A DNA stretch of 64,000 nucleotides. Origin: a virus. The stretch is from positions 86,441 to 150,440 of IMG/VR virus record IMGVR_UViG_3300042907_001596; one strand, 5' to 3'. Made by a program: the position numbers and the translations under genes. This document shows, one piece after another, positions 1,120 to 52,300 of this stretch; position 1 is the first letter of the stretch, and each line of letters starts with the position of its first letter. Under the pieces are notes generated by a model. That model was not told the origin of the DNA. It did not search any database and worked only from the letters and a program-made list of their open reading frames with translations.

Positions 1120-1911
<792 letters not shown>

Positions 1912-28415: not shown

Positions 28416-31400
28416 GTGGCTGACGTTTTTGAGGTGTTGACCGCCTCTGAGTCCGAGCAGAGCATCGCGAAGAAAGCAGCGGCCGACACCCTCGCCGCCG
28501 CGATCTACGACGTACGCGAGCAGTTCGGGGAGCATCTGTTCATCGCCAAGAGCAAAGACGAGTTCCACGACCGTCTGGCCTTGTGCAAAGACGACATGAT
28601 GAAGACGGTCAACGCTCACCTCATGCCGGTGACCGGCGTGATGCGCCGGGTCTGCAAGACGATGGAGCGCGAATGGCGTGAGCGCACCGCCAATCGTCCG
28701 CTGCACGAGATCGCCCGCGACATCAAGACCAACTGGCCGAAGGTCAACTACGCCGCCCAGCCGTACTTAGATGCCCTCCACGAACTGGAGAGCGTCGATG
28801 ATATGTACTACGCGGATCCGGCCAGCCATATCGTCAACTACTTCCTCTCCAACGCCAGATCGTGGCGCGGGCCGGAAGCCAAGCGCATCAAGGACGAACT
28901 GAAGGGCTTGGTCAGCCGCCGCGCCAACCGGCTGGCCTATTCCGACGAAGAGTTGGAAGCCTACAAAGAGACGGTGAGCAGCGACGAGAAGCCGCCGCGC
29001 CCGAAAGCCAAGCCGTTCCCCGACACCGACGGCGAGTGGAAGAAGGCCGACAACACCGGCCCGGTGCAAAGCCTGGAGCAGACCTACTCCCCCTCTGACG
29101 GCCCGCTCGTCCCCGAAGGTGACTTCCACGCCTACCAGAACTCCGTCGACCAGAACGCCGACTCGACGGTGTCGGGAAACTTCACTCCCGGCGAGGACTC
29201 CGGCTCCGACAAGCACGGCTACCGCACCGCCAACGAGGTGATGGGGTACCCGGCCGACGGCGGCATGCCCGACGCAGGCATGGCGACTCCGCCGCCCGCT
29301 CCCGGTATGGATCCGACCACCGGTGCGGGCATGGTTGCCGCCCCGCCAGGAACCGGCGGCAGCGGCCCCGAAATGATGACCGCCGCGATCATCAAGCGGT
29401 ATGCCCAGTGGTGTGTCGCCAACTTGGCGCGGCCGTCGGTGCAGACGCTGGAGTATTACGCCGCCAACCGTCCCGACCTGGACTATTTCGTCCTGACGGC
29501 GGCGTTGCAGAAGCACGCTGAAGTTCCCGGTGGTTCAGCATCGGAGGGGCTTGGTCATATCATTAACCCCTTTGAGCCATCCCCTGAACCCAAGGCTCTT
29601 GATCCGAACCCCTACGCTGGCCTGACCATCCCCGAAAACTTCGATTACAGTGGAGGCAGCGGGGGATCAACCGGCCAGTTTACGGGTGCCTACCTGAAGC
29701 TGTGCCGCCAACAGGGTGTTCAGCCAACGCTACAGGGCTACCAGCGTTTTGCTAACCTCCATACCGCCGCCGGTAAGGGCAAGGACTACCTGCTGCAAGC
29801 CGACGAGGCCATCACCAACCTGCTCAACGAGAAAGCTGAAGAGTTCCAAGAGAGCATTACGCCGCTCCAGCAGGCACTCCAGACCATCCAGTACGCGGAG
29901 CAGGTGCAGCAGGCGCAGAACCCGATGGGCGTCATGCCTCCGGCCGGAACCGTCAACGTCATGCCCCAGACCCAAGGCCCCGCAGGGCCTGCCCCGGCGG
30001 GTGTAGATCCGTCCGGCCAGGTCGACCCGGCGATGCTCGCCCAGCTTATGGGCATGGGTGGCGGGGATCCGTCGCAGATGCAGGATCCCAACGCAGGCAT
30101 CCCTCCGGCAGCCGCCCAGCAGGGTGCGGTGCCGCCGGAGATGCAGATGCAGGCTCGCCGTCGCCGTGCGCAGATCAGCTTGTCTGATGTCCGCATCGAA
30201 GACCGGGGTGCCGGTCTGTGCAGCGGGACAGACCCCGCCGGTCACCGGGTGATGTTCCAGGCTTCGCCGGAAGACATGAAGGATCTCCTGCATGTGATGC
30301 AGGGCGACCTGGCCCAGAACTTCTCTGGGGTGTCGGTGGATGAAGAAGACATTGTCGATATGGGGCCGCAGGAAAAGGTTCCTTCCCACGGCGAGCAGGA
30401 TCCTTACGGTGGCGGTGATGGCGACATCAACCGCAGCTTTACGGGAACCCGCCGCACCGCCAGCAGAACTTCCGACCTCATCGCGGAGTACGAAAGCACT
30501 CCGCACGACGACGTGAAGAGCTTTGAGCTTGAGGAAGCCATCCACCGTCTGGCGGAGCAAGGTGACCCCGAAGCCCTCGCGTTCCTGAACGGTCACGACG
30601 AGCAGGCTCACGACGCGGAAGGGCACGACTACCCTCCGACGGGACACATGGCCCGCCGACGCACCGCCATGCCGATGACCGAAGACGGCTACGACGGAGG
30701 TGACGGCTGGGTTCCCGGCCAGGACTTCGATCCCCATGATCCAGACGAGATGGAAATCATGGAGCACATCTGGGAAGGCGAAAAGCTGAACCGGATGCAG
30801 CAGCTTGAGGAAGAGAACGCGAGACTGCGCAGTCAGCTTGACCCCGGCGGTGAACGTCAGGACTACGAGAACTATCACGATAACCACCGTGAGGGTGCCG
30901 TCTCCGAACTGGGCTACCCCGAACCCGAAGAGGGCTTTGAGGAAAACCACAAGAAGGTACGCAAAGAGAACGACTGGCCAGAACCGGAGTCGCGCTCAAG
31001 CGAAAAGCGTGGTGGTCGGGGAAAAGCACGAGGGGCCGCTAGGCCCCAGAGCCGGGGCCGCACCGCCAGCGGCGACCTGGGCCACTGCCAGATGGGATCG
31101 GGCTGCGGCAACCAGGCCGACCTGACCTTGCCGCTGCGCATCCTGGGGGATGTGCCGTTCTGCCGCCCCTGCGCAGAGCGGTACGTCCGCGTCAAAGACC
31201 GCTACCGCAAAGAAACCCAAGAGAAGAACCGGGCGCAGCAGAAATCCGGCGGCATCTTGGAGGAATGGCAGAAGTGGCAGCAGCGCCGCAGCCAAAGCGG
31301 CAAGCTGGGTATCGGCGGAGACAAAGACATTGAGGACTTCGCCGCCGAGCGCGGCTACGGCAGCCGGGGTGTGGCCACACTCCGCAAGCACCTTTACGGC

Positions 31401-32327
31401 CAGCGCACCGGCTGGTATGAGTCTTACGGTGAGCGCAAAAAGGCTCTCCGCAAGCAAGCCTGGTCAGGCTGGGGGCCGAGCCAGGTCAAGCGCAACCATG
31501 CTGTCGACGGCTGGGACTGGGACAAGCGGCTGTCGGCGTACGTCGCCTCCAGTCCGCCGGAGCACTTCATCTGCAAGTGCGGATCCAAGCTCGCGGTACC
31601 GGGCTACCACAACTGCAAGTGCGGCAAGATCTGGAACTCGTACGTCATCGGCACCGGCGGGGAGAACCGTCAGGCTGCTGTGGAGAAGTTTTTGTGCCGC
31701 GAGATCGCGGTGCGCGACAACGTCATCGTGGCGAACAACAGAACCGCCGGTCGCCCTGTTCGCGACAGCCAGGGCAACCCAATAGAAACGGAATCAGACG
31801 GGTACGTCGAGCGCAAAGTAGTTCGTCAGCCCCAAAGGCCAGAAAAAGACCCAGACCGTCGCCCGTCTGATTTCCAAAGGCAATCTCTCAGTCCTGAAGA
31901 CTTGAGGGATTGGTGGGATTCAGTGAAGCATCTGCACGACAACTCTGAGTTTGATCCAAGACGGTACAACCCAACCACCGGCAAGTATTGGACAGGCAAG
32001 GATGCGCCAGAGATCGGGGCCAGCCGCGAAGCCGCCAAAACCGCCAAAGACGGCGGCTGCACCTGCTGGGAAGGCTACGAGCGTGTCCCCGGCACCGAGC
32101 CGTGCGCGTCTGGCTCCTGCCGGAAGAAGACTTCCGGCCGCGACACGCCAGCAGCGCAGCCGTCCCGGCGGGGCGATTCGTGGAAGTATCGGGAGATGCT
32201 TGCCGCCGATGAAGACGACTCCGACGAGTGGCCATCTGAGCACCACCCCAATGCCGGGAAGTCCACGATGAGCAAGCCCCCCGCCGATTGGCATCACCGC
32301 GATCGTGGAGGGAAGTGGACGGCGTGA
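28416..32327 (+). CDS. very large modular head-region protein, 1303 aa
   Basis: The N-terminal ~190 residues (MADVFEVLTASESEQSIAKKA, HIVNYFLSNARSWRGPEAKRIKDELKG) form a helical domain familiar from large actinophage capsid-region proteins. Later parts include a Pro/Gly/Ala/Met-rich stretch, short helical modules around LKLCRQQGVQPTLQGYQRFA, acidic segments, and two zinc sites (CQMGSGCGN...CRPCAERY near 890-925; CKCGSKLAVPGYHNCKCGK near 1050-1070). Basic junctions such as GTRRTASR, MARRRTAMP and SRGRTASGD punctuate it, suggesting proteolytic processing. Segments near residues 369-430 and 1120-1190 are AT-richer. A packaged internal protein or polyprotein is inferred; no enzyme identified. Confidence 0.6.
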   Translation: MADVFEVLTASESEQSIAKKAAADTLAAAIYDVREQFGEHLFIAKSKDEFHDRLALCKDDMMKTVNAHLMPVTGVMRRVCKTMEREWRERTANRPLHEIARDIKTNWPKVNYAAQPYLDALHELESVDDMYYADPASHIVNYFLSNARSWRGPEAKRIKDELKGLVSRRANRLAYSDEELEAYKETVSSDEKPPRPKAKPFPDTDGEWKKADNTGPVQSLEQTYSPSDGPLVPEGDFHAYQNSVDQNADSTVSGNFTPGEDSGSDKHGYRTANEVMGYPADGGMPDAGMATPPPAPGMDPTTGAGMVAAPPGTGGSGPEMMTAAIIKRYAQWCVANLARPSVQTLEYYAANRPDLDYFVLTAALQKHAEVPGGSASEGLGHIINPFEPSPEPKALDPNPYAGLTIPENFDYSGGSGGSTGQFTGAYLKLCRQQGVQPTLQGYQRFANLHTAAGKGKDYLLQADEAITNLLNEKAEEFQESITPLQQALQTIQYAEQVQQAQNPMGVMPPAGTVNVMPQTQGPAGPAPAGVDPSGQVDPAMLAQLMGMGGGDPSQMQDPNAGIPPAAAQQGAVPPEMQMQARRRRAQISLSDVRIEDRGAGLCSGTDPAGHRVMFQASPEDMKDLLHVMQGDLAQNFSGVSVDEEDIVDMGPQEKVPSHGEQDPYGGGDGDINRSFTGTRRTASRTSDLIAEYESTPHDDVKSFELEEAIHRLAEQGDPEALAFLNGHDEQAHDAEGHDYPPTGHMARRRTAMPMTEDGYDGGDGWVPGQDFDPHDPDEMEIMEHIWEGEKLNRMQQLEEENARLRSQLDPGGERQDYENYHDNHREGAVSELGYPEPEEGFEENHKKVRKENDWPEPESRSSEKRGGRGKARGAARPQSRGRTASGDLGHCQMGSGCGNQADLTLPLRILGDVPFCRPCAERYVRVKDRYRKETQEKNRAQQKSGGILEEWQKWQQRRSQSGKLGIGGDKDIEDFAAERGYGSRGVATLRKHLYGQRTGWYESYGERKKALRKQAWSGWGPSQVKRNHAVDGWDWDKRLSAYVASSPPEHFICKCGSKLAVPGYHNCKCGKIWNSYVIGTGGENRQAAVEKFLCREIAVRDNVIVANNRTAGRPVRDSQGNPIETESDGYVERKVVRQPQRPEKDPDRRPSDFQRQSLSPEDLRDWWDSVKHLHDNSEFDPRRYNPTTGKYWTGKDAPEIGASREAAKTAKDGGCTCWEGYERVPGTEPCASGSCRKKTSGRDTPAAQPSRRGDSWKYREMLAADEDDSDEWPSEHHPNAGKSTMSKPPADWHHRDRGGKWTA

Positions 32328-32674
32328 CCGTGTGCTTCACCTGTAAGCATCTGCGGGAGATTGTCCACACCGACGAACTGGAGCGGGGCTTCTGCGCCCA
32401 GTGCTACCGGCCGTCGTGGGATCTCCTCTTCGCCAACAGCTTCATGGCGCTGACCGTCCCCTTCGCGGTGGGCGATCGGGTGCAGTGCCGCACCGCCGGA
32501 GTGATCTACGACGGCATCGGCGTGGTGGAGGAAGTCTCCACCGACTTGAAGGACGGAGGAACCTGGGTGTATCCGGCGTTCCGCGTCCGCTTCGATGAGA
32601 AGGCATACTCATCGGTGCCCGACGTGCAGTTGTACACCGAAGCCTGCCTGACGAAGGTGGGCAGCGATGAGTGA
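32324..32674 (+). CDS. zinc-ribbon plus small beta-barrel protein, 116 aa
   Basis: GTG 32324 overlaps the previous stop (GTGA). Residues ~4-27 hold a zinc ribbon, CFTCKHLREIVHTDELERGFCAQC. The rest has an SH3/KOW-like pattern (FAVGDRVQCRTAGVIYDGIGVVEEVSTD, TWVYPAFRVRFDEKAYSSVPD). It may be a small nucleic-acid- or protein-binding adaptor for the portal, which starts 8 bp before its end. Exact role unknown. Confidence 0.6.
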   Translation: MTVCFTCKHLREIVHTDELERGFCAQCYRPSWDLLFANSFMALTVPFAVGDRVQCRTAGVIYDGIGVVEEVSTDLKDGGTWVYPAFRVRFDEKAYSSVPDVQLYTEACLTKVGSDE

Positions 32675-35063
32675 CTTCTCCATCTCCGACCGGCGCGGGC
32701 GCACCGCGTCCGGCCTCTACGTCGGCAACGCCAACACCGAGATGCACCGGCTGCGCCAGGCCGGGTACACCCTGCCCAACTCCCCGGTGCAGGCCCGCAT
32801 CGAATCCCGCCGGGTAGCCGACACCGCCACCGCCGGATCGCTGGCCGACTCCACCAACAAAGCTATCGCCGCGCAGATGCGCCGCAGCCGGATGGGCAGC
32901 ATGCGGGCGTCCACCGGCGGATCTACGATGATGCGTACCGGATCCAATACCCAGATGGCGATGCCGAAGGTGCGCCAGCCGATGGGGTCGCTGGCCGACA
33001 AAGGCATCCCCTTCAACGTCCAAGACCCCAAAGAGCTTATTGAGCTTCGCCGGTGGTGCCGGTTGTTCTATTCGACCCATGACTTGGTGCCGTTGTTGAT
33101 CGACATCTACGCGAAGTTCCCGGTCGTCGGCTTGGAGTTCCAAAGCAAAGACCCGAAGATCCAAGAGTTCTACGAGCAGATGTTTATGCAGGATCTGAAC
33201 TACTCCGAGTTTCTGCCCGAAGGGCTGGGCCGGGAATACTTCACCGTCGGTGAGGTCACCTCGCTGGCGCACTTCAACGAGTCGCTGGGCATCTGGTCGT
33301 CCGAAGAGATCCTGAACCCCGACATGGTGCGCGTCAGCAAAAGCCTCTTCGTCGGCCAGGAGCGGGTGCAGCTTCTCGTCAAAGACTTGGTGGACTCGCT
33401 GCGCACCGGCCCGCAAGGGTCAACCTCCGGCGAAGAGTCGCCCAGCGAGAAGCTGGAGCGCACCTGGGAGTACCAGCAACTGGTCAAGCACTACCCCGAA
33501 ATCGTCAAGGCGGCAGCCCAAGACGACGGCCTCGACATCTCCGACGCGCTCTGCTCACGCCTAGTCAACAAGTCCTCCTGGTGGGATCTGCGGGGCACCC
33601 CGCACCTGCTGCGCTCCTTCCGCACCCTGATGATGGAAGAGTCGCTGCACGCCGCCCAGGACGCCGTGGCCGACCGGCTGTACGCCCCGCTCATCCTCGC
33701 CACGATGGGTATTGAAAATATGGGCGACGGCGAGCCGTGGATCCCCGACCAAGGCGAATTGGACGATCTGCGCGACGACATGCAGAACGCTTTGTCGGCC
33801 GACTTCAAGCTGATGGTGCATAACTTCGGCGTGAACATCCAGTCGGTGTTCGGCCGCGAGCAGGTGCCGCGCTTCGACACCGACTACGACCGCATCGACG
33901 CCAAGCTCCTCCAGGCGTGGGGCATCGGCCAAGCTCTCATCGCCGGTGGCTCCGGTGCCGGTGGTGCCTACGCTTCGTCCGCGCTGAACCGCGAGGTGTG
34001 CGAGCAGTTGATGCTCACCTTCCAGAACAAGGTTCACCGCCACATTATGAAGCGGGCCGAAGTCATTGCCGAAGCCCAGGAGCATTACGACTTTGAGCTA
34101 AAAGGCGGCATCCGCCGCCCGATCTACCGGGAGATCGTGCAGTACAACGAAGAGACGGGCGAAGAAGAGATCGTCCGCGTCCCCAAGCTGCTGCTGCCCG
34201 AAGTCAAGTTCGCTACCCTCAACCTTCGCGACGAAGCCCAAGAAAGGGCGTTCATCGCCCAACTCAAGCAGATGGGTGTGCCCGTCTCCGACGGCAGCTT
34301 GGCGGTCAACATCCCGATTGAGTTCGACCAGGAGCTAGAGAAGCAGGCCGAAGAGACGGTCGCTAAAGGGCTGGCGAAAGCCCAGGCGATGGACAAGCTC
34401 CAGAAGATGTGCGACGCCCAAGGCATCCCGTACCCCGACGATCTGGTGGCTGCACTATCAGCCACACTGCAACTGCGTCAGGGTTTGGCCCAGACCGAAA
34501 TGGTCGAGGGTCAGGCGGAGATGCAGGAGCAGCAGATGAAGGCGATGTCTCCCGCCGGACAGATGGGCCTTATCCCCGGCGTCGCTGCGCCTCCGCCGCC
34601 GCCGGAAGGTCAGCAGAAAGCTGCCTCGACCGGCCCGCACGGATCCCCGCCGTTTGCGTCCGGCCCCGGCGGTGTGCAGGAAGTAGAAGAGGAAGGGACT
34701 CCGCCGGAGCTTCCCCGCAACCGGCAGCGTCCGGCGGAGTCCGACGAGCAGCGCGGCTCCATGCCGAAGAAGTCACGGTTTGAGCAGGGGCCAAGCTCCT
34801 ACGGCAAAGCGATGCGGGCCAACACCAACCGGGTGGAGCAAGCAGTGCGCCGCCGGGAGGCGGTCGCTCGCGGAGTGTCCGTCAGCGATCTGGTCAACGA
34901 CCCCGAGTCGTACTTCTTGACTAATATGGGTGGCTACGAAGCGCAGATCCGCGCCGACTGGCCGGAGATTCAAGCCGGGGGTGCCCCCGACAGTCGCAAG
35001 CTGTTAGAGGAGTTGGTGGAGCAATATGAAGAAGTCACCGGTATCACGCCCCGATGGGACTAA
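32667..35063 (+). CDS. portal protein, 798 aa
   Basis: The central region (KELIELRRWCRLFYSTHDLVPLLIDIYAKFPVVGLEF, then FLPEGLGREYFTVGEVTSLAHFNESLGIWSSEEILNPDMVRV) has the hallmarks of large-phage portals: early helical stem, wing domain and a long helical crown (ALSADFKLMVHNFG...). It forms the dodecameric DNA gate at one head vertex. The N-terminus begins with an RGRTASGLYVGN junction like those in neighbouring large proteins, so the first residues may be cleaved. The C-terminal ~200 residues are Pro/Gln/Met-rich and low complexity. It overlaps the previous gene by 8 bp. Confidence 0.8.
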   Translation: MSDFSISDRRGRTASGLYVGNANTEMHRLRQAGYTLPNSPVQARIESRRVADTATAGSLADSTNKAIAAQMRRSRMGSMRASTGGSTMMRTGSNTQMAMPKVRQPMGSLADKGIPFNVQDPKELIELRRWCRLFYSTHDLVPLLIDIYAKFPVVGLEFQSKDPKIQEFYEQMFMQDLNYSEFLPEGLGREYFTVGEVTSLAHFNESLGIWSSEEILNPDMVRVSKSLFVGQERVQLLVKDLVDSLRTGPQGSTSGEESPSEKLERTWEYQQLVKHYPEIVKAAAQDDGLDISDALCSRLVNKSSWWDLRGTPHLLRSFRTLMMEESLHAAQDAVADRLYAPLILATMGIENMGDGEPWIPDQGELDDLRDDMQNALSADFKLMVHNFGVNIQSVFGREQVPRFDTDYDRIDAKLLQAWGIGQALIAGGSGAGGAYASSALNREVCEQLMLTFQNKVHRHIMKRAEVIAEAQEHYDFELKGGIRRPIYREIVQYNEETGEEEIVRVPKLLLPEVKFATLNLRDEAQERAFIAQLKQMGVPVSDGSLAVNIPIEFDQELEKQAEETVAKGLAKAQAMDKLQKMCDAQGIPYPDDLVAALSATLQLRQGLAQTEMVEGQAEMQEQQMKAMSPAGQMGLIPGVAAPPPPPEGQQKAASTGPHGSPPFASGPGGVQEVEEEGTPPELPRNRQRPAESDEQRGSMPKKSRFEQGPSSYGKAMRANTNRVEQAVRRREAVARGVSVSDLVNDPESYFLTNMGGYEAQIRADWPEIQAGGAPDSRKLLEELVEQYEEVTGITPRWD

Positions 35064-35715: not shown

Positions 35716-38700
35716 ATGGTGAAAATCGGCAGCGCGGTACAGACTGCCCACGGTTTGGGCACGGTTACCGACACCGAAACGGTGCGCGGCCGAACCCAGT
35801 ACAAAGTGGCCGGAGATGGCTTCGCTGTCTGGCTGGACGACGTGAAGGTTGCCGCTTCCAGCCCAAGCTCAGAGGATTGGGTTGACGAGCGTCGGAGATG
35901 GGAAAACTCTCACCCCGAATGGAGTCCGTTTAAAGAAGATGAGGATTCTCAGCGTCGGCTGAATACAAAAGAGTCCTCGCTAGGTGACGTAGACGAGTCC
36001 AACTCCACCACGCTGCCGTACGACTACGAGCCGCAGCACCCGGTGGAGATGTACAACCAAGAGTCCACCATCATCCCCGCCGAGCACGACGATGTCGACG
36101 CAGAAGAGCGCACCCACCCCACCAACTCCGTGACCGGCGAGAGCGAAGAGGGTGGCCCCTACCCCGGCCCCGCCCCGCACCTGTTCGCCAGGGTCATGGA
36201 CTACCCCGCCGACTACGACCTGGGCGATGAGCCGTCCGAAGAGGAAGTCGCCGCCGACGAGCGCAGGAACCGCGAAGAGGAAGAAGCTCTTTACGAGCAG
36301 TACCTCCTTGAGCATCGCCCTCACTTCCACGGCGACGAAGAGTACGAAGGACGGATGTCCTTTGAGGGCGCAGCCGAAGGCGCAGCCTCTCAAGACTGCG
36401 ACTATTGCGGTGAGTCGGGACACGACTGGCAGGAGCATCCCGAAGCGTGGGCCGACGTTGCAGTATGGAATTACGAGAAGAAACAGCATGACTTCCCGTT
36501 CGGGGATCACCACGAAGGCGAGCCTGCTGAGGACTTTGACGGCTACGAGCATTTCGCTGCACGCACCGCCGCCGGAGCGTGGGGCGACCTGGCCGACGAA
36601 CCCGAAGCTGGCGGAGGACACCACGCCAAAGGCAGCGCAGGGCACTATCAGCAGTACGCGCTGCGCAACGGATTAAACCCCGGCAGCAGCCTCGCCGCCG
36701 ATCAGTATTCCCGCGAACACAACATCCCGCTGGAACGGGCTGAAGGCTTCGCTATGAAGCAGAGCCACCGCCCCGCCGGTCTGAGTGACAAGTACATCGA
36801 CATCCAGGCTGCCGCCGACGACATTCACGACCCGATCGTCCAGTTCCGCCGCGACCCCATCGCCTTCCTTCAGCGCAAAGCCTACGAGGCGGAGTGCGAA
36901 GAAGGGCTGGATCCGCGTGTCGGGCAGTACATGGATCTGGTCAACGCCGACACCAGCATCCGCACTGCCGCCTGGAACGATGTCCGCACCAAAGCTCTGC
37001 GGCTGCGCCGCGAAGGCAAGGTGTATGTCAAGTCCTCCACGCCGGAAGCCATCTACGCCACCGTCGAGGGCGACAACAACGTGTACGACTCCATCATCGT
37101 CCAAGGCAACGCCTTGAACATCGGTGGCCAGTCGGTCACCGAATGGCACTGTGGCTGCCCATGGGGCAAGTGGGCGTTCAAGCGCAAGATCTCTTACGTC
37201 GGCCGGTTCTGCTCCCACGCTTACGCCACCTACCTGGAGATGCAGTCCCGCCACACCACCGGCCAGGGTGGGGTCAAGCAGACCCCGAACCGCAACCGCA
37301 ACAAGCCGTGGCTGAGTGTGCCGCAAAACAAGAAGGCTGCCGCCGACGACATGAAGACCCGGTCGGAGCGCGACTACGACGTGGACGGCTACGGCTTCGA
37401 TGACGACGGCGGATCCGGTGGCCCGAAGACCCTGAAGAGCCAGCCCGAAAGCATGGAGCCGGACTTCTACGAAGTACCCGTCGGCACCCAACAGGGGTAT
37501 ACGTTCGACAATGGCAAGGGCACGGTCACGAACTTAGGCGACGACCGCAAGACCACCGGGCCGGATCAGATCATGGCCAAAGTCGACAAGAAGTGGGCCG
37601 ACGACCACGCCAAGCTGGACGACGAAGAGCACGAGCCGATCGTTCACTTCAGCATGCGCAAGCAGGCGCTGACCTACACCGCCGATGAGAACCTGCTGGA
37701 GAAGCTGCGCGACCTCAGCCTGGAAGCCCCGTCCGACAGCAACGGCCACAAGCGGGAGCGCAACCGCGAGGTGTCGGAGATCGTGGACGAACTCCACGAC
37801 CGGGGCTATGACGCCAGCCAGTTCGTCGCATCGCTGCGTACCGCCGAGGACGGCGAGGGTGGTATTTTTGACTGGCTAGGGCAGGCAACCCGTAGCCCTT
37901 TTGAGCGCAACCTGGATGGTGGCAGCGACAGCTTTTCGGACGCATTTGATCTTCGTAATCCGTTCTACAATGACGACGCACCTTCACAGACAAACCCGCA
38001 AGGATCTGGTGCTTACGTCAAGAGGGACGAGCCATCGTCGCCCACCGGAAGCTCCGACCCCGATGCTTTCGCGGATCTGAGCAATATCGGAGAAGATCCC
38101 GCTGACCCCGCTCCCGCCCCGGCAGCAGCCGCCGCCGCATCCGGTACCGGAGTCAGCGAAGTCAGCAGTGACGCCGGAGGCGGCGGCGGTGGTGGTGCAG
38201 GCGGCGGCGGTGGTGCAGGTGGCTATGTGTCCCCTCCCGGCGGCACTCGCGGCCCCGTCACCGACGGTGGCGTTCCCGGCGCGGAGAACGGCGACAACTC
38301 GCTGATCAACACCGAGAGCTACACCACCCAGGCGGGGGACACCCTGACCGACATCGCGCAGCGGACGTACGGCGACATGAACCGTTACGAAGAGATCGCT
38401 ACGAACAACAACATCACCAACACCGACCAGCTTGATGTTGGGACGACCCTGAACCTTCCCGGCGCGGGAGGGGCTTCCCCCGCCCCGGCGGCAGCGGACG
38501 CTCCGGCTTTGGCCGCAGAAGCCCCAACCCCGGCTCAGGCCAACGCTGGCCCCCCGCCGGACAACGCCGCATCGGCAACCTTCGCGCCGGGTGCCCCGGT
38601 GCCGCCGGTCGGCACTGTGGCCCGCCGCCGGTACAGTGGCCCCGGCCACGACCACGGCAGCGAGGCTACCGACGACGACGACGAAACCAAAAAGACTGCC

Positions 38701-39528
38701 CCGCCAGCATCCACCACCACGACACCGTCGTCGTCAACGCCCCCGGCGTCCACGCCAGTAGACAGCCGCTCCCCGGCGGCGGGCGCATCCGGCGGGATGA
38801 CCGCGCAAGGCATCCCCATCCCGACGGAAACGCAAGACCAGATAACGCAAGACAACTTCGGCTCCGCCAAGTCCCAGCCGAAAACACAAACCTTAGAGGA
38901 TCGGCTACCCCAGCCGGGGCAGTCCACCTCAACCGGCGACGGCGGCATGGGTGACTTCGGATCGGTGATGGGCGAAATCGGCCCCGCGCTGTCCGGCCTG
39001 ACGACGGGCCTTGGCCCACTGGTGGGCGAGATCGGATCCGCTGTGGCTCCGGCCATCAGTGGCTTGGCCAGCGGTTTGGGCGGCGCACTCAGCGGGCTGT
39101 TCAGCATGGCGTCTGCACCGAATGAAGGATCTGACCACGACGCGGGCCTGCCCGCTGAGGACTTCGGCACCTCCGAAGAGTGGATCAACGCCAACGAGAG
39201 CGGCTGCCGGGAAGACGTGACCGACGGCGACGGCGACATCACCAGTTACACCCCGCCGCGCCAGCAGCCCAAGCAGGCTAGCTACGACGACAACGACATC
39301 GTCCGGCAGTTCCAGGCCAACATCGGTAATACCGCGCTGGCATCGGTCGGCGGCGGCGGCGGATACAGCGACGACGCGATCTCGCAGGCTGCCCAAGGCT
39401 TTCTGCGGACAGCGGGTCGGGTGTACTCCCTAGCCGAGCAGCAGGAACTGATTGACGAGTCCCACCCGCAGGGTGCCCGCAACCTGCCTGGCCTCGACCT
39501 TCGGGGCACCCACTACCTGGAGGGCTGA
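35716..39528 (+). CDS. very large modular head-region protein with SWIM zinc finger and LysM domain, 1270 aa
   Basis: Visible parts in order: a small beta domain (~1-50), an acidic region (~60-290), helical modules, a SWIM zinc finger near 474-510 (WHCGCPWGKW...GRFCSHAYATYLE), more acidic/helical segments, a Gly/Ala/Pro linker, a LysM domain near 868-916 (YTTQAGDTLTDIAQRTYGD), a Ser/Thr/Pro-rich linker, and a C-terminal part ending LPGLDLRGTHYLEG. LysM binds N-acetylglucosamine polymers such as peptidoglycan. Junctions FAARTAAGA, SIRTAAWND, ASLRTAEDG, TVARRRYSG and FLRTAGRVY suggest processing. Located between portal and prohead protease, so a virion-internal polyprotein is likely; inference. 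Confidence 0.65.
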   Translation: MVKIGSAVQTAHGLGTVTDTETVRGRTQYKVAGDGFAVWLDDVKVAASSPSSEDWVDERRRWENSHPEWSPFKEDEDSQRRLNTKESSLGDVDESNSTTLPYDYEPQHPVEMYNQESTIIPAEHDDVDAEERTHPTNSVTGESEEGGPYPGPAPHLFARVMDYPADYDLGDEPSEEEVAADERRNREEEEALYEQYLLEHRPHFHGDEEYEGRMSFEGAAEGAASQDCDYCGESGHDWQEHPEAWADVAVWNYEKKQHDFPFGDHHEGEPAEDFDGYEHFAARTAAGAWGDLADEPEAGGGHHAKGSAGHYQQYALRNGLNPGSSLAADQYSREHNIPLERAEGFAMKQSHRPAGLSDKYIDIQAAADDIHDPIVQFRRDPIAFLQRKAYEAECEEGLDPRVGQYMDLVNADTSIRTAAWNDVRTKALRLRREGKVYVKSSTPEAIYATVEGDNNVYDSIIVQGNALNIGGQSVTEWHCGCPWGKWAFKRKISYVGRFCSHAYATYLEMQSRHTTGQGGVKQTPNRNRNKPWLSVPQNKKAAADDMKTRSERDYDVDGYGFDDDGGSGGPKTLKSQPESMEPDFYEVPVGTQQGYTFDNGKGTVTNLGDDRKTTGPDQIMAKVDKKWADDHAKLDDEEHEPIVHFSMRKQALTYTADENLLEKLRDLSLEAPSDSNGHKRERNREVSEIVDELHDRGYDASQFVASLRTAEDGEGGIFDWLGQATRSPFERNLDGGSDSFSDAFDLRNPFYNDDAPSQTNPQGSGAYVKRDEPSSPTGSSDPDAFADLSNIGEDPADPAPAPAAAAAASGTGVSEVSSDAGGGGGGGAGGGGGAGGYVSPPGGTRGPVTDGGVPGAENGDNSLINTESYTTQAGDTLTDIAQRTYGDMNRYEEIATNNNITNTDQLDVGTTLNLPGAGGASPAPAAADAPALAAEAPTPAQANAGPPPDNAASATFAPGAPVPPVGTVARRRYSGPGHDHGSEATDDDDETKKTAPPASTTTTPSSSTPPASTPVDSRSPAAGASGGMTAQGIPIPTETQDQITQDNFGSAKSQPKTQTLEDRLPQPGQSTSTGDGGMGDFGSVMGEIGPALSGLTTGLGPLVGEIGSAVAPAISGLASGLGGALSGLFSMASAPNEGSDHDAGLPAEDFGTSEEWINANESGCREDVTDGDGDITSYTPPRQQPKQASYDDNDIVRQFQANIGNTALASVGGGGGYSDDAISQAAQGFLRTAGRVYSLAEQQELIDESHPQGARNLPGLDLRGTHYLEG

Positions 39529-39581: not shown

Positions 39582-42500
39582 GTGATAACGCCGCCCCGCC
39601 GCTTCTCTGCGGCGCAATCCCGCAGCCTTTCCGGCGACGGTGTCCGGCAGCTACTCGCTTCGTATCGGGGTGGTGCCGCCGACAACGCTGCCGTCGTTCC
39701 TGGCTTCACGATTGAGCCGGGGATGATCTACACCCAGGTGCGGGCCATCAGTGCGCGGATCAACCAGAACTACGATGCGTGGCCCAGCGGCGAACTGAAG
39801 AAGAGCTACAAGACCTTTTTGGGCAAGCCGGTCTTCGTCAATCACGCCAACTTCGACCCAGAGAAGGCACGCGGCCGGGTTGTCGCCGCCCGCTATGTCG
39901 AAAGCGGCAACGACAAATACGTTGAGGTCATCCAAGAGATCGACGCCCAACGCTTCCCGAAGCTCGCCAAAGAGATCCACGAAGGTGGACTGGATTCGGT
40001 GTCGATGGGTGTGGAGGCCGGGTTCACGAAATGTTCAATCTGTGACAACCGCGCCACCGACATGACCGATATGTGTGACCACATCAAGTTCCACAAAGGC
40101 GAGTTTATGCGCCACGCCAAGACCGGCGAAGACACCATGGTCTACGAGAACTGCTACAAGCTGGGATTTTTTGAGTTGAGCTACGTCTTCGACCCGGCCG
40201 ATGAGACGGCCGTCGTCAGCCGCGTCGTGGTAGCCAGCCGCCCACAGGCGTCGCGCCGCCAGGAGCGCGACCGCAAGATCCGCGAATACCGCGACTTCAT
40301 CAAGCAAAACCCCGGCAGCCTTAAGGCAGCCCGCCTCATCGTGGCCACCGAGATCGCCAGGACGGACTGGTCAGATCTGGGTCGGCGGGCATACGGGGAG
40401 GGCGCACCGGCGAAAGCTGCTAGCCATCCCGAAGTTGCCGCCGCCTTGAAGCACTTAGATCCGCGCAGCGACACCGCCCGGTGGATCAGCAACGAATACC
40501 AGCAGGGCTACGACACCGCCAGGAAGACCAGCCGCCGTCGGCTGGCGGCGGGCGAAGACGAACTCAACCGGGGCATGATCTCTCCCGCGACCTCACCGGC
40601 ACCGCCTCCCGCCATGAAGCCGGATGAGAACACCTCCACCATGAGCGAACTGGCCAACACCCCGCTGGGTGATCTGCCCTATCGGCCGACCTCGTTCCCC
40701 ACCGCGATCCCCGGCGCACCGTCGGGCGGAAGTTCATCCGGCGGCGGTGTCAGCGGCGCGGGCTACGTCTCCCCCGGCGGCGGGACGGCCGACGCGGCAG
40801 GTCTGATGGACAACAACCGGGGCCTGCACACCCTGCTGAAGCAGACCTTCCCCGACCTAGAAATCGGCGGCTACCGCCCACCGGGGGATGGCTTCGATGA
40901 ACACGCCAAAGGCGCGTTGGACATTATGACCACGGACAACGACATAGCGGCACAGATCCGCCAGATCGGCTTCGACAACGGTGTGCCCTACGCCTTGTGG
41001 CAGCAGCAGCAGTTCAACGCACCGTGGTACAACGGCGGAGGAGTATCACAAATGGAAGATCGGTTCAGTCCGACCCAAAACCATTTCGATCACGTCCACC
41101 TCGCGCCGCCGGATATGTCTTTGATGCCGCGCTCCGCGTCTCGCCGTCGCGCCTGGGGAGAAACCGAAGCCCCCGAAGACATCGACACGCTGCGCGACCA
41201 AAGCGAAGACGACGGGCAGGACGAGTTCCACCACTATGTGGACTCCCCCGAAGAACTTCAGACACCCGACTTCGACCAGGCTAAGCGGCTGGATCGGGCA
41301 CAAGAACAGCAGGGCCTCGACGCCGACCGGCGGGTAGAGGACATCGAAGAGGTCGGAACCCCCGGCCAACAAGGAAGAGGAAGAGCCGTGGCCGGACGAC
41401 GCCGTTACGCCGAAGACATGCCGATGATGGCCCCCGAAGAAGAAGGCATGATGCCTCCTGAAGAAGGCATGGCCCCCGAAGAGAGCATGATGCCGTCCGA
41501 AGGGATGCCGCCCGCTGAAGCCATGCCTCCCGGCGCGATGGGCAGCCTCAGCCCCGCCGACGAGTTGGCTCTCCTCAACCAGGCGGAGCAAGACCTGGAG
41601 TACGCCGAATCCGAGTTAGTCGAAGACTATGTCGGAGTGCCCAGCGCGGGGCCGCAAATGCCCCCGCAAGAAGAAGGTGGGCAAATGCCTCCCCAGTTAG
41701 CTTCCCGTCGCCCTGTGAGAAGCACCGCTTCACGACGGAATGTACGAGAGACACAGAAAGGACGACCAATGGGAATCAACCTGTCCGAGCGCGGGAGGGT
41801 CGCTTCTCGTGGTCGACGCCTTCATGCCGACGAAAGCGGCCTCACTGACGGCGGGCCTTACGGCCGTAACGACCTGGGTGAGTCCGAAGAAGTCCACATC
41901 TCCGATCAGTTCGGTGGAGACGGTGTGCCGTCGGCGGAAGCCGTAGCCAACCCGCACGCCGGTGAGACGATCTCCAACACGGAGAACACCCTCGTCGCCC
42001 GCGTCCAGCATGGCACCGCGCAGTTGCGCCGGGATGCCGCCGCGCTGGCCAGTCTGCGTCAGAAGAAGTCCGCCGCCGCCGCTACCCCCGAAGCAATCAG
42101 TCGGCGGTACGTCGCGCTGTGCCGTCAGGCCAACGTCCGTCCGACCCAGGACGGTTTCCGCCGCTTCTACGCGGAGTGCTGCGACGACAACATCATCGAA
42201 CCCACGACGGTCAACCCCGAACTGTCGGGCACCGACGACCAGACCATCAAGGGTGACGACTTCGACAACATCGCCCTCGACAACGTCGCCACCCAGCCGA
42301 AGGACGCGAGCATCCACGCTTTCGCCGCGTTCGATGACTGGCTGGCCCGCTCGACCGGCCGGACTGCTCGCCAGCACGGCAATGCGAACTTCATCCGGCG
42401 CGAAGCGGCACGGTACATCCGCGCCACCGGGCTGCCGCTGAACAACTTGTTCCCCACCCTGGAAAAAGTTCTGGTGGAAGCCAGAAAGGCTGAGGACATC

Positions 42501-43055
42501 ACCAACCGGAAGGCAGCCATGAGGCGAGTCGCTGACACGAAGCTGGAAGTTGCAGCACCAGGCGACCGCATCGACGTGGAGCGTCCGGTCAAGAACGTCA
42601 CCGACGCCGAAGCCCAAGCGTCTCAGTACGACCTGAGCGACTACGGCTCCAACGCCGGTGACAACCTTGCCGACCCCGACCTCAGTACGGATTCACAGAT
42701 CTGGGCACCGGGCGAAGGCAGCAAGACATCCAACCGGATGGCGGATGCGGTAGCGGCGGTTCGTTGTGCCGAAGCCTACATTCGCGCTGGCATGGCGGAC
42801 GCGGACGACAAGTGGAAACTCATCGCCCGATTCCAGACCATGCGCCACGCGACGGTCGTTGACCGTACGCGACTGCTGGAGGCCAAGAACGAGTTGGACT
42901 CACAGCGCACATCACGACGTTCCGCCGGTGTTTCTCGCGGTGCGACCAGCAGAAGCATCCCTCCAGGCTTGGGCAGCGGCCAACGCACCGCCCAGACCCA
43001 GCGGGTTGCCGACAACAGCGATCCCCGTAACGACTCACTTCTGTTCTTCAAGTAA
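39582..43055 (+). CDS. prohead protease fused to a long multidomain tail, 1157 aa
   Basis: Residues ~45-215 are a capsid maturation protease of the His-Ser herpesvirus-assemblin type: FLGKPVFVNHANFDPEKARGRVVAARY (catalytic His) and GGLDSVSMGVEAG (catalytic Ser). A zinc-like insert follows (CSICDNRATDMTDMCDH). After linkers, residues ~405-510 carry a peptidase-like cell-wall domain (GGYRPPGDGFDEHAKGALDIM...FDHVHLAPP). Then come acidic and Met-rich scaffold-like stretches with RRR-containing junctions, a helical module (ALCRQANVRPTQDGFRRFYAE, as in the 28416 protein), and a C-terminal helical part. It likely matures the head and may be self-cleaved into pieces. GTG start. Confidence 0.75.
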   Translation: MITPPRRFSAAQSRSLSGDGVRQLLASYRGGAADNAAVVPGFTIEPGMIYTQVRAISARINQNYDAWPSGELKKSYKTFLGKPVFVNHANFDPEKARGRVVAARYVESGNDKYVEVIQEIDAQRFPKLAKEIHEGGLDSVSMGVEAGFTKCSICDNRATDMTDMCDHIKFHKGEFMRHAKTGEDTMVYENCYKLGFFELSYVFDPADETAVVSRVVVASRPQASRRQERDRKIREYRDFIKQNPGSLKAARLIVATEIARTDWSDLGRRAYGEGAPAKAASHPEVAAALKHLDPRSDTARWISNEYQQGYDTARKTSRRRLAAGEDELNRGMISPATSPAPPPAMKPDENTSTMSELANTPLGDLPYRPTSFPTAIPGAPSGGSSSGGGVSGAGYVSPGGGTADAAGLMDNNRGLHTLLKQTFPDLEIGGYRPPGDGFDEHAKGALDIMTTDNDIAAQIRQIGFDNGVPYALWQQQQFNAPWYNGGGVSQMEDRFSPTQNHFDHVHLAPPDMSLMPRSASRRRAWGETEAPEDIDTLRDQSEDDGQDEFHHYVDSPEELQTPDFDQAKRLDRAQEQQGLDADRRVEDIEEVGTPGQQGRGRAVAGRRRYAEDMPMMAPEEEGMMPPEEGMAPEESMMPSEGMPPAEAMPPGAMGSLSPADELALLNQAEQDLEYAESELVEDYVGVPSAGPQMPPQEEGGQMPPQLASRRPVRSTASRRNVRETQKGRPMGINLSERGRVASRGRRLHADESGLTDGGPYGRNDLGESEEVHISDQFGGDGVPSAEAVANPHAGETISNTENTLVARVQHGTAQLRRDAAALASLRQKKSAAAATPEAISRRYVALCRQANVRPTQDGFRRFYAECCDDNIIEPTTVNPELSGTDDQTIKGDDFDNIALDNVATQPKDASIHAFAAFDDWLARSTGRTARQHGNANFIRREAARYIRATGLPLNNLFPTLEKVLVEARKAEDITNRKAAMRRVADTKLEVAAPGDRIDVERPVKNVTDAEAQASQYDLSDYGSNAGDNLADPDLSTDSQIWAPGEGSKTSNRMADAVAAVRCAEAYIRAGMADADDKWKLIARFQTMRHATVVDRTRLLEAKNELDSQRTSRRSAGVSRGATSRSIPPGLGSGQRTAQTQRVADNSDPRNDSLLFFK

Positions 43056-49382: not shown

Positions 49383-52300
49383 ATGGCAGTCGCTTTCGTC
49401 TCCACCGGCCCTGGTGGAACCGGCACTGCGGCCAGTTTGTCGTGGACGCACTCGCTCGCTTCGGTGAGCAACGGTTACGTCATCGTCTACGCCATGGCAG
49501 GGGGGTCGACCCCGACCTCGACGGCGACAGTCGGCGGCGTCAGCATGACAAGGCTGTGCGACTACGTCACATGGTCTGACGGTGGCATCTACGCCCTGAC
49601 GGCGTTCGGTTTGGCGACCAGCCTGACGGGCAATCAAACGGTTGTGGTCACCTATTCTTCATCGACCGAAGCCAGCGCGTCGTCTGTCTTTTACTCCGGC
49701 GTCAACTCCGCACAGCTTCCGCCAACCATCGCAACGGGCACTACCGTTTCAACGCTGTTCTCCAACAGCAGCACGGCCTGGTCTAGCGCAGTCACCCGGC
49801 CTGCTGGCGGATATGTTTCGCACTCCTTCGGCTCGCGTGTCGCGGCGGTCAGTCTCACCGGCGGAACACTGCGGTGGCAGCGATCAACAACCGGTGTGGC
49901 CGACACGGTGACCAGCAGAAACTTCCTATACGTCCAAGACGCGGCGGCGACAACAACATTCTCAGGATCCGCTACCGGGCGCGGCTGGGGAGCCGTCCGT
50001 ATCCAGTTAAATCCCGCCCCCGTCACCGCCAACGCTTCGCTGGCAGTCACTGCAACGCCGACAGCGGGCGTCATAAAAAATCCTGCCACAGTTAAGGGCA
50101 CTGCGGAATCAGCGTTAGCGTCGAGTGTTGCGATCCCCGCGCATGCCGTGGGTGATGTAATTGTCATCTTTGGGTATCTGAATGGCCTCGCCACCCCACC
50201 CACGGCACCAACCGCTTCAGGCACCGTTCCGGCGTGGGTTCCGATTCAAAGCGGCGGCGGTAACTCTAATGGCGGCGGCGCATGGTATTTCGTCGCCACC
50301 AGCAACAATCATACGTCGGGGACGTGGGGTAGCTGCTCCGGCCTTACTGCGGTAGTGATTCAAGGCGCAAAAACCACGTCGTCACCCATAGGTGGTTTTG
50401 CACTATCGAACGCTAACGTAGTCAACTCTGTTACCGCGCCTGCAATTACACAACGTGTGACCGACGGCTCTAGCTGCCTGCTGTATTTCCACGGCCACCG
50501 GAACTGTACGGCCTGGGGATCTGCGCCTACCGGATTTACTAGGCGCACCGCCGTGGCAGGCACGTCAGGCTTATGCCTCAACACCAAAGATGATCCAAAG
50601 TCTGACGGTGCCGCGACGCAAACAAATACCGGCAACGGCGGCGCTTTGGGTCAGACAATCGAAATTATGGCGGCTTCGGCCCCAACCTTAGTTGACGCCT
50701 CTGTGCCGGTCACGGCAACGCGGACGGCAGCCGCAAGCAATGCTGCTCGCGCCAACGCTACCCCAGCCGTCACCGCTACCCTGACGGCGGGCGTTGTAAA
50801 AAGTGGCGTCGACTTCAACAGTCAAACAAGTACTCTCACCGGAACATCCGGTGCTGCTTCTGCCTCAATTCCTTTCACCGCCTTATTGGGTGCAGATGTT
50901 TTTGTAGCTATCTCAACCGCAACGGCTGTGCAGCGAACAATCACGTCGTGCAGCTATGGCGGCGTGGCAATGACGCTTATCGCCAACATAGGCCATGGCA
51001 GCGACACAAGTACGCTCTATGGCACTACGGCCCTGTACCGTTTGGCCGGATCGGGTTCGGGCGCGTCAAAAACAGCCGCATTTACGTTCAATGCGAACAC
51101 GGCTCATTCCGCAACTGTTTTTTCTTACAGTGGAGTCGGAAGTGTAGGCACTGCAACAACTTCATTCGGCAGTGCTTCGCCGTCAATCGGCCCGATTGCG
51201 TGCGCCAGCGGGGATGTGATTGTTGGTGTTATCGGAACCGGCGTAAGCAACCTTGGTTCTGCTATCACGGCGACTAGCGGCGGCACTAACCGTGCCATTA
51301 CAAACAGCGTCGCCAACTATGCCGGGTTAGCAGTTTCTGATTCAGCCGCGACAGGCACCACGTTTAGCGCTACGCAATCATCCGCTTTGGGCTGGTCTGG
51401 TATCGCACTCGTCCTTAGTACCGGGACGGTTACCGCCGCCGCCGCCGATGCCACCCTGGCCGTTACTGCTAATCGCACCGCGAACGCTGTTGTCGTTACC
51501 CAAGTAAGCTCCACTACTCTGGCAGGAACCGCCACTCGTACAGCAACAGCGACCCGCAATCACGCCGCCGACGCTTCGCTCCCGGTCACCGCCACCCTCA
51601 ACGGGGTGTTCCCCTACATCTTCCCGTTTGCCCTCGACGGCAGTCCGTCGGTGGCCCGCAACGCCGTCGTCAACGCCCCCCTGGCCGTCACCGCCACGCC
51701 GACCGCAACGGCCAGCATCCAGGCTCGCGCCAACGTCAGCCTGCCTGTCACGGCCAGTCGGCCATCTGCTGCTACCCGCAATCAGTTCGCCACCACTACC
51801 ACGCTGGCGGCGACGGGAACCTTAACGGGATCGGCCGGACTCCAATTCGTCGCCAACGCCAGCCTCCCGGTCACCGCCACCGTTACTGCTGCCGCTTCCC
51901 TCGCCGCCGCCGGAGCAGCCACCAGGGCTGTCACCGCCACCTTTACGGCAACAGCAACCCGCAACGCCGTCGTCAACGCTAATGCCCCCTTTACCGCTAC
52001 CTTTAATGCCACCGCCAGAAGCCAGACCGCAGCCAACTCCAGCTTGGCTCTGACGGCAGCGTTCACCGCCACCAGTACCCGCAACCACGTCGCCAATGCG
52101 TCCTTCGCAGCAACGACGAATCGGGCCGGAGCCGCCAGCGCCCAAGCCTCCGCCAGCACCGCCGTAGCGGTCACCGCCGCACCTTCTGCCACCGCCGCCG
52201 TCGCCGGAATAGCCGCTGCACTTCTGACTCTCGTTGACACCCCGACCTCCGCCGCTATTCGCAACCAGTTCGTCAACTCGACCACGCTGGCCCTCACTGC

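Follow-up and report, generated by a model that had tools for sequence, protein, structure and literature searches.

Why should a peptidoglycan-directed domain lie inside a gene for phage head assembly? The question arises from one gene (39582-43055) in a 64,000-nucleotide stretch of viral DNA, here called the window, which is part of the IMG/VR record IMGVR_UViG_3300042907_001596 (150,440 bases in total). The record is kin to the cluster C contractile-tailed mycobacteriophages (I3, Bxz1, Myrna) and to Phrappuccino, Pupper and Finch, and the phage itself is a contractile-tailed actinobacterial phage. A preliminary description, made from the letters alone, had placed a LAS/M15-like domain behind the prohead protease of this gene and suggested that it might be delivered on infection. 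What we find is a muralytic domain of known type whose carrier is unusual and exchangeable. Our preferred reading, to which we assign a probability of about 0.58, is that the domain is an interchangeable muralytic cargo. It would assemble together with protease and scaffold, be excised at [RK]-x-A sites, stay in the head and, once ejected, cleave peptidoglycan.

By sequence and predicted fold, the domain is a member of the MT3/VldE family (clan MD, LAS). The open reading frame and the motifs quoted in the preliminary description are present exactly. A tblastn search with the domain reached cluster C phages at 5e-29, a family profile that has the window among its members scored it at ~2e-50, and hmmsearch related it to the solved MT3 domain of VldE at 5.7e-29. 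AlphaFold modelled the domain with a predicted local distance difference test (pLDDT) score of 91, and a fold search placed VldE on top (Z 12.8), followed by Hedgehog (Z ~6) and ChiX (Z 5.1). Motif 3 (mt3) of the TM4 protein gp17 falls in the same profile family (2e-43), and a residue tested in TM4, W853, coincides with the invariant Trp of the family. Scans of Pfam and NCBIfam did not recognize the domain, so that family membership is based on PHROGs, PDB profiles and folds. The proposed kinship with a small secreted protein at 1570 holds at a distance, this protein being a remote member of the same family (8.9e-6).

The residues required for catalysis are retained. VldE cuts the L-Ala-D-Glu bond of peptidoglycan, and its activity requires the zinc-site residues H301, D308 and H375 together with H370, D372 and H373, E368 being dispensable and R294 a proposed transition-state stabiliser (PMC11667670). 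Counterparts of H301, D308, H375, H370, D372, H373 and R294 are found in the window in the same order (H441, D447, H506, H501, D503, H504 and R432), with Q499 at the position of E368. The six His and Asp counterparts are invariant or nearly so across the family alignments. A peptidoglycan L,D-endopeptidase activity is predicted for the domain.

The zinc motif is indeed one residue short, as had been noticed: H441 and D447 are separated by five residues (HX5D), versus six (HX6D) in 83/83 scorable cellular homologues. Among 47 non-redundant viral members, 36 have HX6D and 8 have HX5D, and all 8 are encoded in head genes or, for the relative L015, in a free-standing gene right behind the capsid gene. 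The HX5D members cluster together in the tree (support 96/92). The ratio of nonsynonymous to synonymous substitution rates (dN/dS) is ~0.12-0.25 in the closest HX5D pairs; it is higher in more distant pairs, where synonymous changes are near saturation. The suggestion that the short motif reflects inactivation was not supported, in that every one of the seven essential or catalytic residues of VldE has its counterpart and purifying selection acts on the HX5D subgroup. We read HX5D as a variant maintained by that selection, with activity predicted. Since the window domain lacks the HX6D spacing of the MT3/VldE family, it is filed by homology and fold as a divergent variant rather than as a canonical member.

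The assignment of the gene to head maturation is borne out. Its first 220 residues match the PHROG 'head maturation protease' at 4.6e-21. The protease domain, predicted by AlphaFold from 37 homologues (pLDDT 94), has as its nearest solved folds T4 gp21 (5JBL, Z 10.5) and the varicella-zoster virus protease (1VZV, Z 10.4); herpesvirus proteases occupy most of the top ranks, and among viral models the named matches are mostly prohead proteases. His88 and Ser141 are invariant across the 37 homologues and would pair up as the active site. The gene sits downstream of the portal gene (32667) and upstream of the capsid gene (43636), directly preceded by a gene bearing a LysM domain. Fold, invariant His and Ser and head-gene neighbourhood together identify the N-terminal domain as an assemblin-fold prohead protease, its proteolytic role being predicted. 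In the relatives L056 and L079 the protease carries an intein-like insertion, after VYEDC in L056 and right behind the conserved GVSMGC, beside the catalytic Ser, in L079. In more distant metagenomic relatives (L065-L077) the protease is a free-standing gene of ~220 amino acids. Two prohead-protease-like models in BFVD (A0A6J5N5R9 and A0A6J5RFH1) belong to proteins named Ferritin/Dps-containing and may represent further cargo fusions, in phages unrelated to this one.

Comparison with homologues, which occur in cluster C phages and in 69 viral contigs, revealed more than the protease plus extra domain first described. The 1157-amino-acid frame extends into a long, conserved C-terminal part (residues ~525-1157), which begins AYGExEAP..DTLR in the relatives, and between it and the protease lies a slot of 12 to more than 700 amino acids. 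In the protease, I3 and Drazdys share 99.5% identity, and in the C-terminal part 99.8%; between their LAS domains identity drops to 42%. Nearly all of the DNA differences between the two genes fall within codons ~201-660. The slot may hold one of two LAS subtypes, a transglycosylase-like, Cys-peptidase-like, L5-gp82 or methyltransferase-like domain, or none of these; zinc-binding-looking segments also occur. Both LAS subtypes and the transglycosylase-like and Cys-peptidase-like domains all match tape-measure cassettes. The transglycosylase-like domain of L056 matches tape measure PHROGs down to 1.2e-19 (Pfam SLT only at 0.016), and the Cys-peptidase-like domain of L048, whose enzyme class was judged by eye on sequence motifs, matches a tape measure PHROG at 7.2e-12. 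With both inserts tblastn reached tape measure genes; phmmer of PDB with the same inserts gave no useful match, and a scan of the viral contigs with the L048 insert returned only its self-match. The slots of L028 and L037 contain a Phage_L5_gp82 domain (PF25735, 1.8e-17), and that of Pupper (L012) an L5 gp82-type domain as judged by sequence likeness; this family is known as a free-standing mycobacteriophage protein. The methyltransferase-like domain (GAGLGHS-type motif; weak Pfam match, 3.5e-4) occurs in L007 (Myrna), L040, L042, L047 and L053, behind LAS or alone in the slot. No insert is present in Phrappuccino, L015 and L044, which keep protease and C-terminal part; L015 carries a free-standing LAS gene (L015:10686-11390) directly behind its capsid gene.

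On these sequence comparisons, the slot in the head protease gene is exchangeable, with hydrolase cassettes replaced by other tape-measure-type ones. A single tree branch of moderate support (84/79) separates the head-gene LAS domains from those of tape measures, so that LAS may have entered the head gene once and later diverged, with swaps of subtype. A separate acquisition of the HX6D LAS domains of Drazdys and L040 from tape measures is not supported by the same tree, which puts the head-gene domains on one side of that branch. The linker GYVSPxGG, common to the LysM gene, was considered as a mark of DNA-level recombination; the DNA comparison did not support this.

We also looked for motifs at which the protease might cut. 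Herpesvirus assemblins cleave after Ala. The protease of phage SPN3US has a known P3-x-P1 motif, A-X-E (PMC10052503). In 43 non-redundant relatives, the most over-represented tripeptides outside the protease are RTA (86 versus 17.6 expected) and KTA (64 versus 11.2). Within the window, [RK]TA is enriched in the large gene at 28416 (z 8.8) and in the LysM gene (z 5.3), as well as in several of the corresponding genes of I3, Phrappuccino and Finch; most other genes tested gave a weak signal or none, the small RNA ligase of Pupper being an exception. In the protease gene itself the narrow motif is unenriched (z 1.2) and the broader [RK]-x-A is enriched (z 3.4). The LAS domain is bracketed by RLA (320-322) and RSA/RRA (517-524), and an N-terminal R-x-A is common to the capsid proteins of several relatives. 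We consider the [RK]-x-A motifs to be candidate cut sites.

These data can be assembled into a mechanism. The gene would fuse a head protease to a scaffold, in a layout like that of herpesvirus UL26, and a slot for cargo would separate the two parts. In this phage the slot holds an MT3/VldE-type zinc endopeptidase. The fusion protein would co-assemble within the prohead, where the protease would cleave at [RK]-x-A sites and free a fragment of approximately residues 323-519. The scaffold part would exit or be degraded, and the freed enzyme would remain in the head to be ejected with the DNA. It would then cut the L-Ala-D-Glu bond of peptidoglycan stem peptides and ease DNA entry, as motif 3 does from the TM4 tape measure. 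Sequence and fold establish the domain identity, the retained catalytic residues, the exchangeable slot and the replacement by other tape-measure cassettes; the cutting sites, packaging, ejection and enzymatic activity of the HX5D form are what we infer. We hold a wider version tentatively: in large actinobacterial myophages, the protease-scaffold polyprotein may be a general dock from which swappable enzymes are co-assembled, cut at [RK]-x-A and injected, by a route distinct from T4-type capsid-targeting sequences. The docked enzymes would possibly comprise three wall-hydrolase classes, the L5-gp82 domain and the methyltransferase-like domain.

Several points weigh against the cargo reading. 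We arrived at the [RK]-x-A motif post hoc, and [RK]TA is also enriched in a long low-complexity tail gene (49383-55277, z 4.1). Scaffold fragments usually exit the head. The slots of some relatives are without a hydrolase, which is accordingly inessential to this type of gene. The HX5D spacing has no characterised member, and a literature search found no virion mass spectrometry or proteomics of any cluster C relative. A virion structural protein of the same genome contains an NlpC/P60 domain (2.4e-8), so the head LAS enzyme is not the sole wall-entry tool. The tape measure of the genome (780 amino acids; L084:3420-5759, phrog_2836) has no MT3-type domain. A minor tail protein (G000:C1:17227-22983, L084/L085) has a cutinase/LysB-like stretch and is possibly a virion-borne mycolate esterase. 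The head enzyme would thus supplement the tail enzymes, not replace them.

The alternative that survives best, though we judge it improbable, is that LAS is released in the prohead and lost with the scaffold fragments, or that it is an inactive binding or structural relic whose zinc site is spoiled by the short motif. Propeptides of head proteins commonly exit the capsid (PMC10052503). This, and the departure of HX5D from every scorable cellular member, are in keeping with such a fate, but a relic is at odds with the retention of every catalytic residue over a divergent sub-lineage and with the low dN/dS of close pairs. Moreover, unrelated hydrolases occupy the same slot in other phages, which points out hydrolysis as the selected trait. 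It is still less probable that LAS is no virion cargo and acts late, as a separate product of an internal start or of cleavage, to aid lysis or wall remodelling. The free-standing gene of L015 and the internal start codons in the sequence of the linker region would allow it; in nearly all relatives examined, however, LAS belongs to the head module, where it shares one reading frame with protease and scaffold, and the matching domains elsewhere belong to tape measure proteins, that is, to virion entry devices. A role in assembly, such as that of a second peptidase or of a zinc-binding element assisting protease or scaffold, is very unlikely: LAS is fused to the protease and VldE is able to store several zinc ions (PMC11667670), but the insert-less L015, L044 and Phrappuccino retain protease and C-terminal part, so that assembly needs no insert. 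That the product is a tail protein, as the note 'tape measure' on Myrna gp97 and the tape-measure types of the cassettes might suggest, is barely credible given the assemblin fold, the head maturation protease PHROG, the position between portal and capsid genes and the separate tape measure of the same genome.

The features of the locus are collected in the table. The LysM gene is conserved at its ends and variable in the middle; window, I3 and Phrappuccino have the LysM domain in it, and none was found in Myrna, Finch and Pupper.

Features of the head protease locus and associated genes (window coordinates)
Feature	Position	Strand	Basis
Head protease / muralytic cargo / scaffold-like fusion gene, 1157 aa, GTG start	39582..43055	+	Open reading frame as first described; homologues in cluster C phages and 69 viral contigs
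Assemblin-fold head protease domain (predicted), aa 30-222; invariant His88, Ser141; embedded Cys/His cluster	39669..40247	+	Alignment, AlphaFold, fold matches, phrog_18299
Exchangeable slot between protease and conserved C-terminal part, aa 211-523	40212..41150	+	Comparison of relatives
Candidate upstream cleavage motif R-L-A, aa 320-322	40539..40547	+	Motif position and enrichment; inferred site
LAS (MT3/VldE-type) metallopeptidase domain, aa 399-513	40776..41120	+	tblastn, profile, hmmsearch, predicted fold
Arg432, counterpart of VldE R294 by sequence order within GYR motif	40875..40877	+	
Zinc-ligand motif H441-x5-D447 (VldE H301, D308; shorter by one residue)	40902..40922	+	
H501-F-D503-H504-V-H506 (VldE H370, D372, H373, H375)	41082..41099	+	
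Candidate downstream cleavage motifs RSA (aa 517-519), RRA (aa 522-524)	41130..41153	+	Inferred sites
Conserved scaffold-like C-terminal part, aa 525-1157	41154..43052	+	Alignment with nine relatives
Small separate protein, putative signal peptide, distant MT3-type domain (HX6D)	1570..1911	+	
Large gene upstream of portal gene, strongest [RK]TA enrichment	28416..32327	+	
Portal protein	32667..35063	+	phrog_2833
Adjoining head-module gene, LysM (peptidoglycan-binding) domain, enriched [RK]TA motif	35716..39528	+	
Major capsid protein; N-terminal R-x-A ahead of conserved SxEY segment	43636..44637	+	PHROG match

The kind of enzyme is already known from phage tails. If the cargo reading is correct, the head protease gene as carrier explains a wall-cutting tool of contractile-tailed mycobacteriophages that lies outside the tape measure, and offers a genetically simple route to learn which proteins such phages inject. 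Specific cut sites and virion peptides follow from this reading as predictions, and existing stocks (I3, Myrna, Drazdys, Alice) would serve to check them. The HX5D form may in addition reveal how far the LAS metal site tolerates change.

Parts of the proposed arrangement have counterparts in known systems. Herpesvirus UL26 is a protease-scaffold fusion, and the predicted N-terminal fold of the window gene resembles those of T4 gp21 and the herpes assemblin (Z 10.5 and 10.4); unlike the window gene, these have no enzyme cargo between protease and scaffold, and their cleavage motifs differ. T7 gp16 is an internal-core transglycosylase stored in the head. It would be alike in its working, as a head-stored muralytic enzyme ejected to the wall, whereas it has its own gene, is a podovirus core protein of another fold and is not fused to a protease; its role in infection is discussed in PMC1796659. 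For the contractile-tailed phage Bxz1, mt3 was listed in gp95 in 2006, with no link to head maturation (PMC1796659). I3 gp103, Drazdys gp97 and Myrna gp97 have the architecture of the window gene, and from these cluster C orthologues it is very probable that Bxz1 gp95 is the same gene. Gp95 and its orthologues are annotated as hypothetical, and the literature found on them connects them neither with a head protease nor with an exchangeable slot. The placement of the domain, called unexpected in the preliminary description, is so only in part: it is conserved across cluster C mycobacteriophages, and the domain was on record for Bxz1, though the 2006 paper did not connect that protein with head maturation.

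The closest cellular comparison is VldE (Spr1875) of Streptococcus pneumoniae (PDB 9FLM), whose MT3 domain shares the fold over 105 residues (Z 12.8, 27% identity), the zinc ligands, the catalytic His and Asp residues and the Arg. VldE joins LysM and MT3 in one protein, and the window phage has LysM in the neighbouring gene. Unlike the window protein, VldE is a cellular secreted enzyme with HX6D and with E368 in the zinc loop, where the window has Gln499. The closest phage comparison is mt3 of TM4 gp17, which hydrolyses peptidoglycan and aids DNA injection into stationary cells (PMC1796659). It belongs to the same domain family, has the same invariant Trp and likewise sits in a protein with which an actinobacterial phage assembles its virion; its carrier, in contrast, is a tape measure, that of a tail of the non-contractile type, its motif is HX6D, and its activity and infection phenotype were measured (PMC1796659). 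By analogy with these relatives, both muralytic and one of them part of a tail protein through which a phage eases the injection of its DNA, the delivery on infection proposed at the outset is a plausible role for the head-gene domain.
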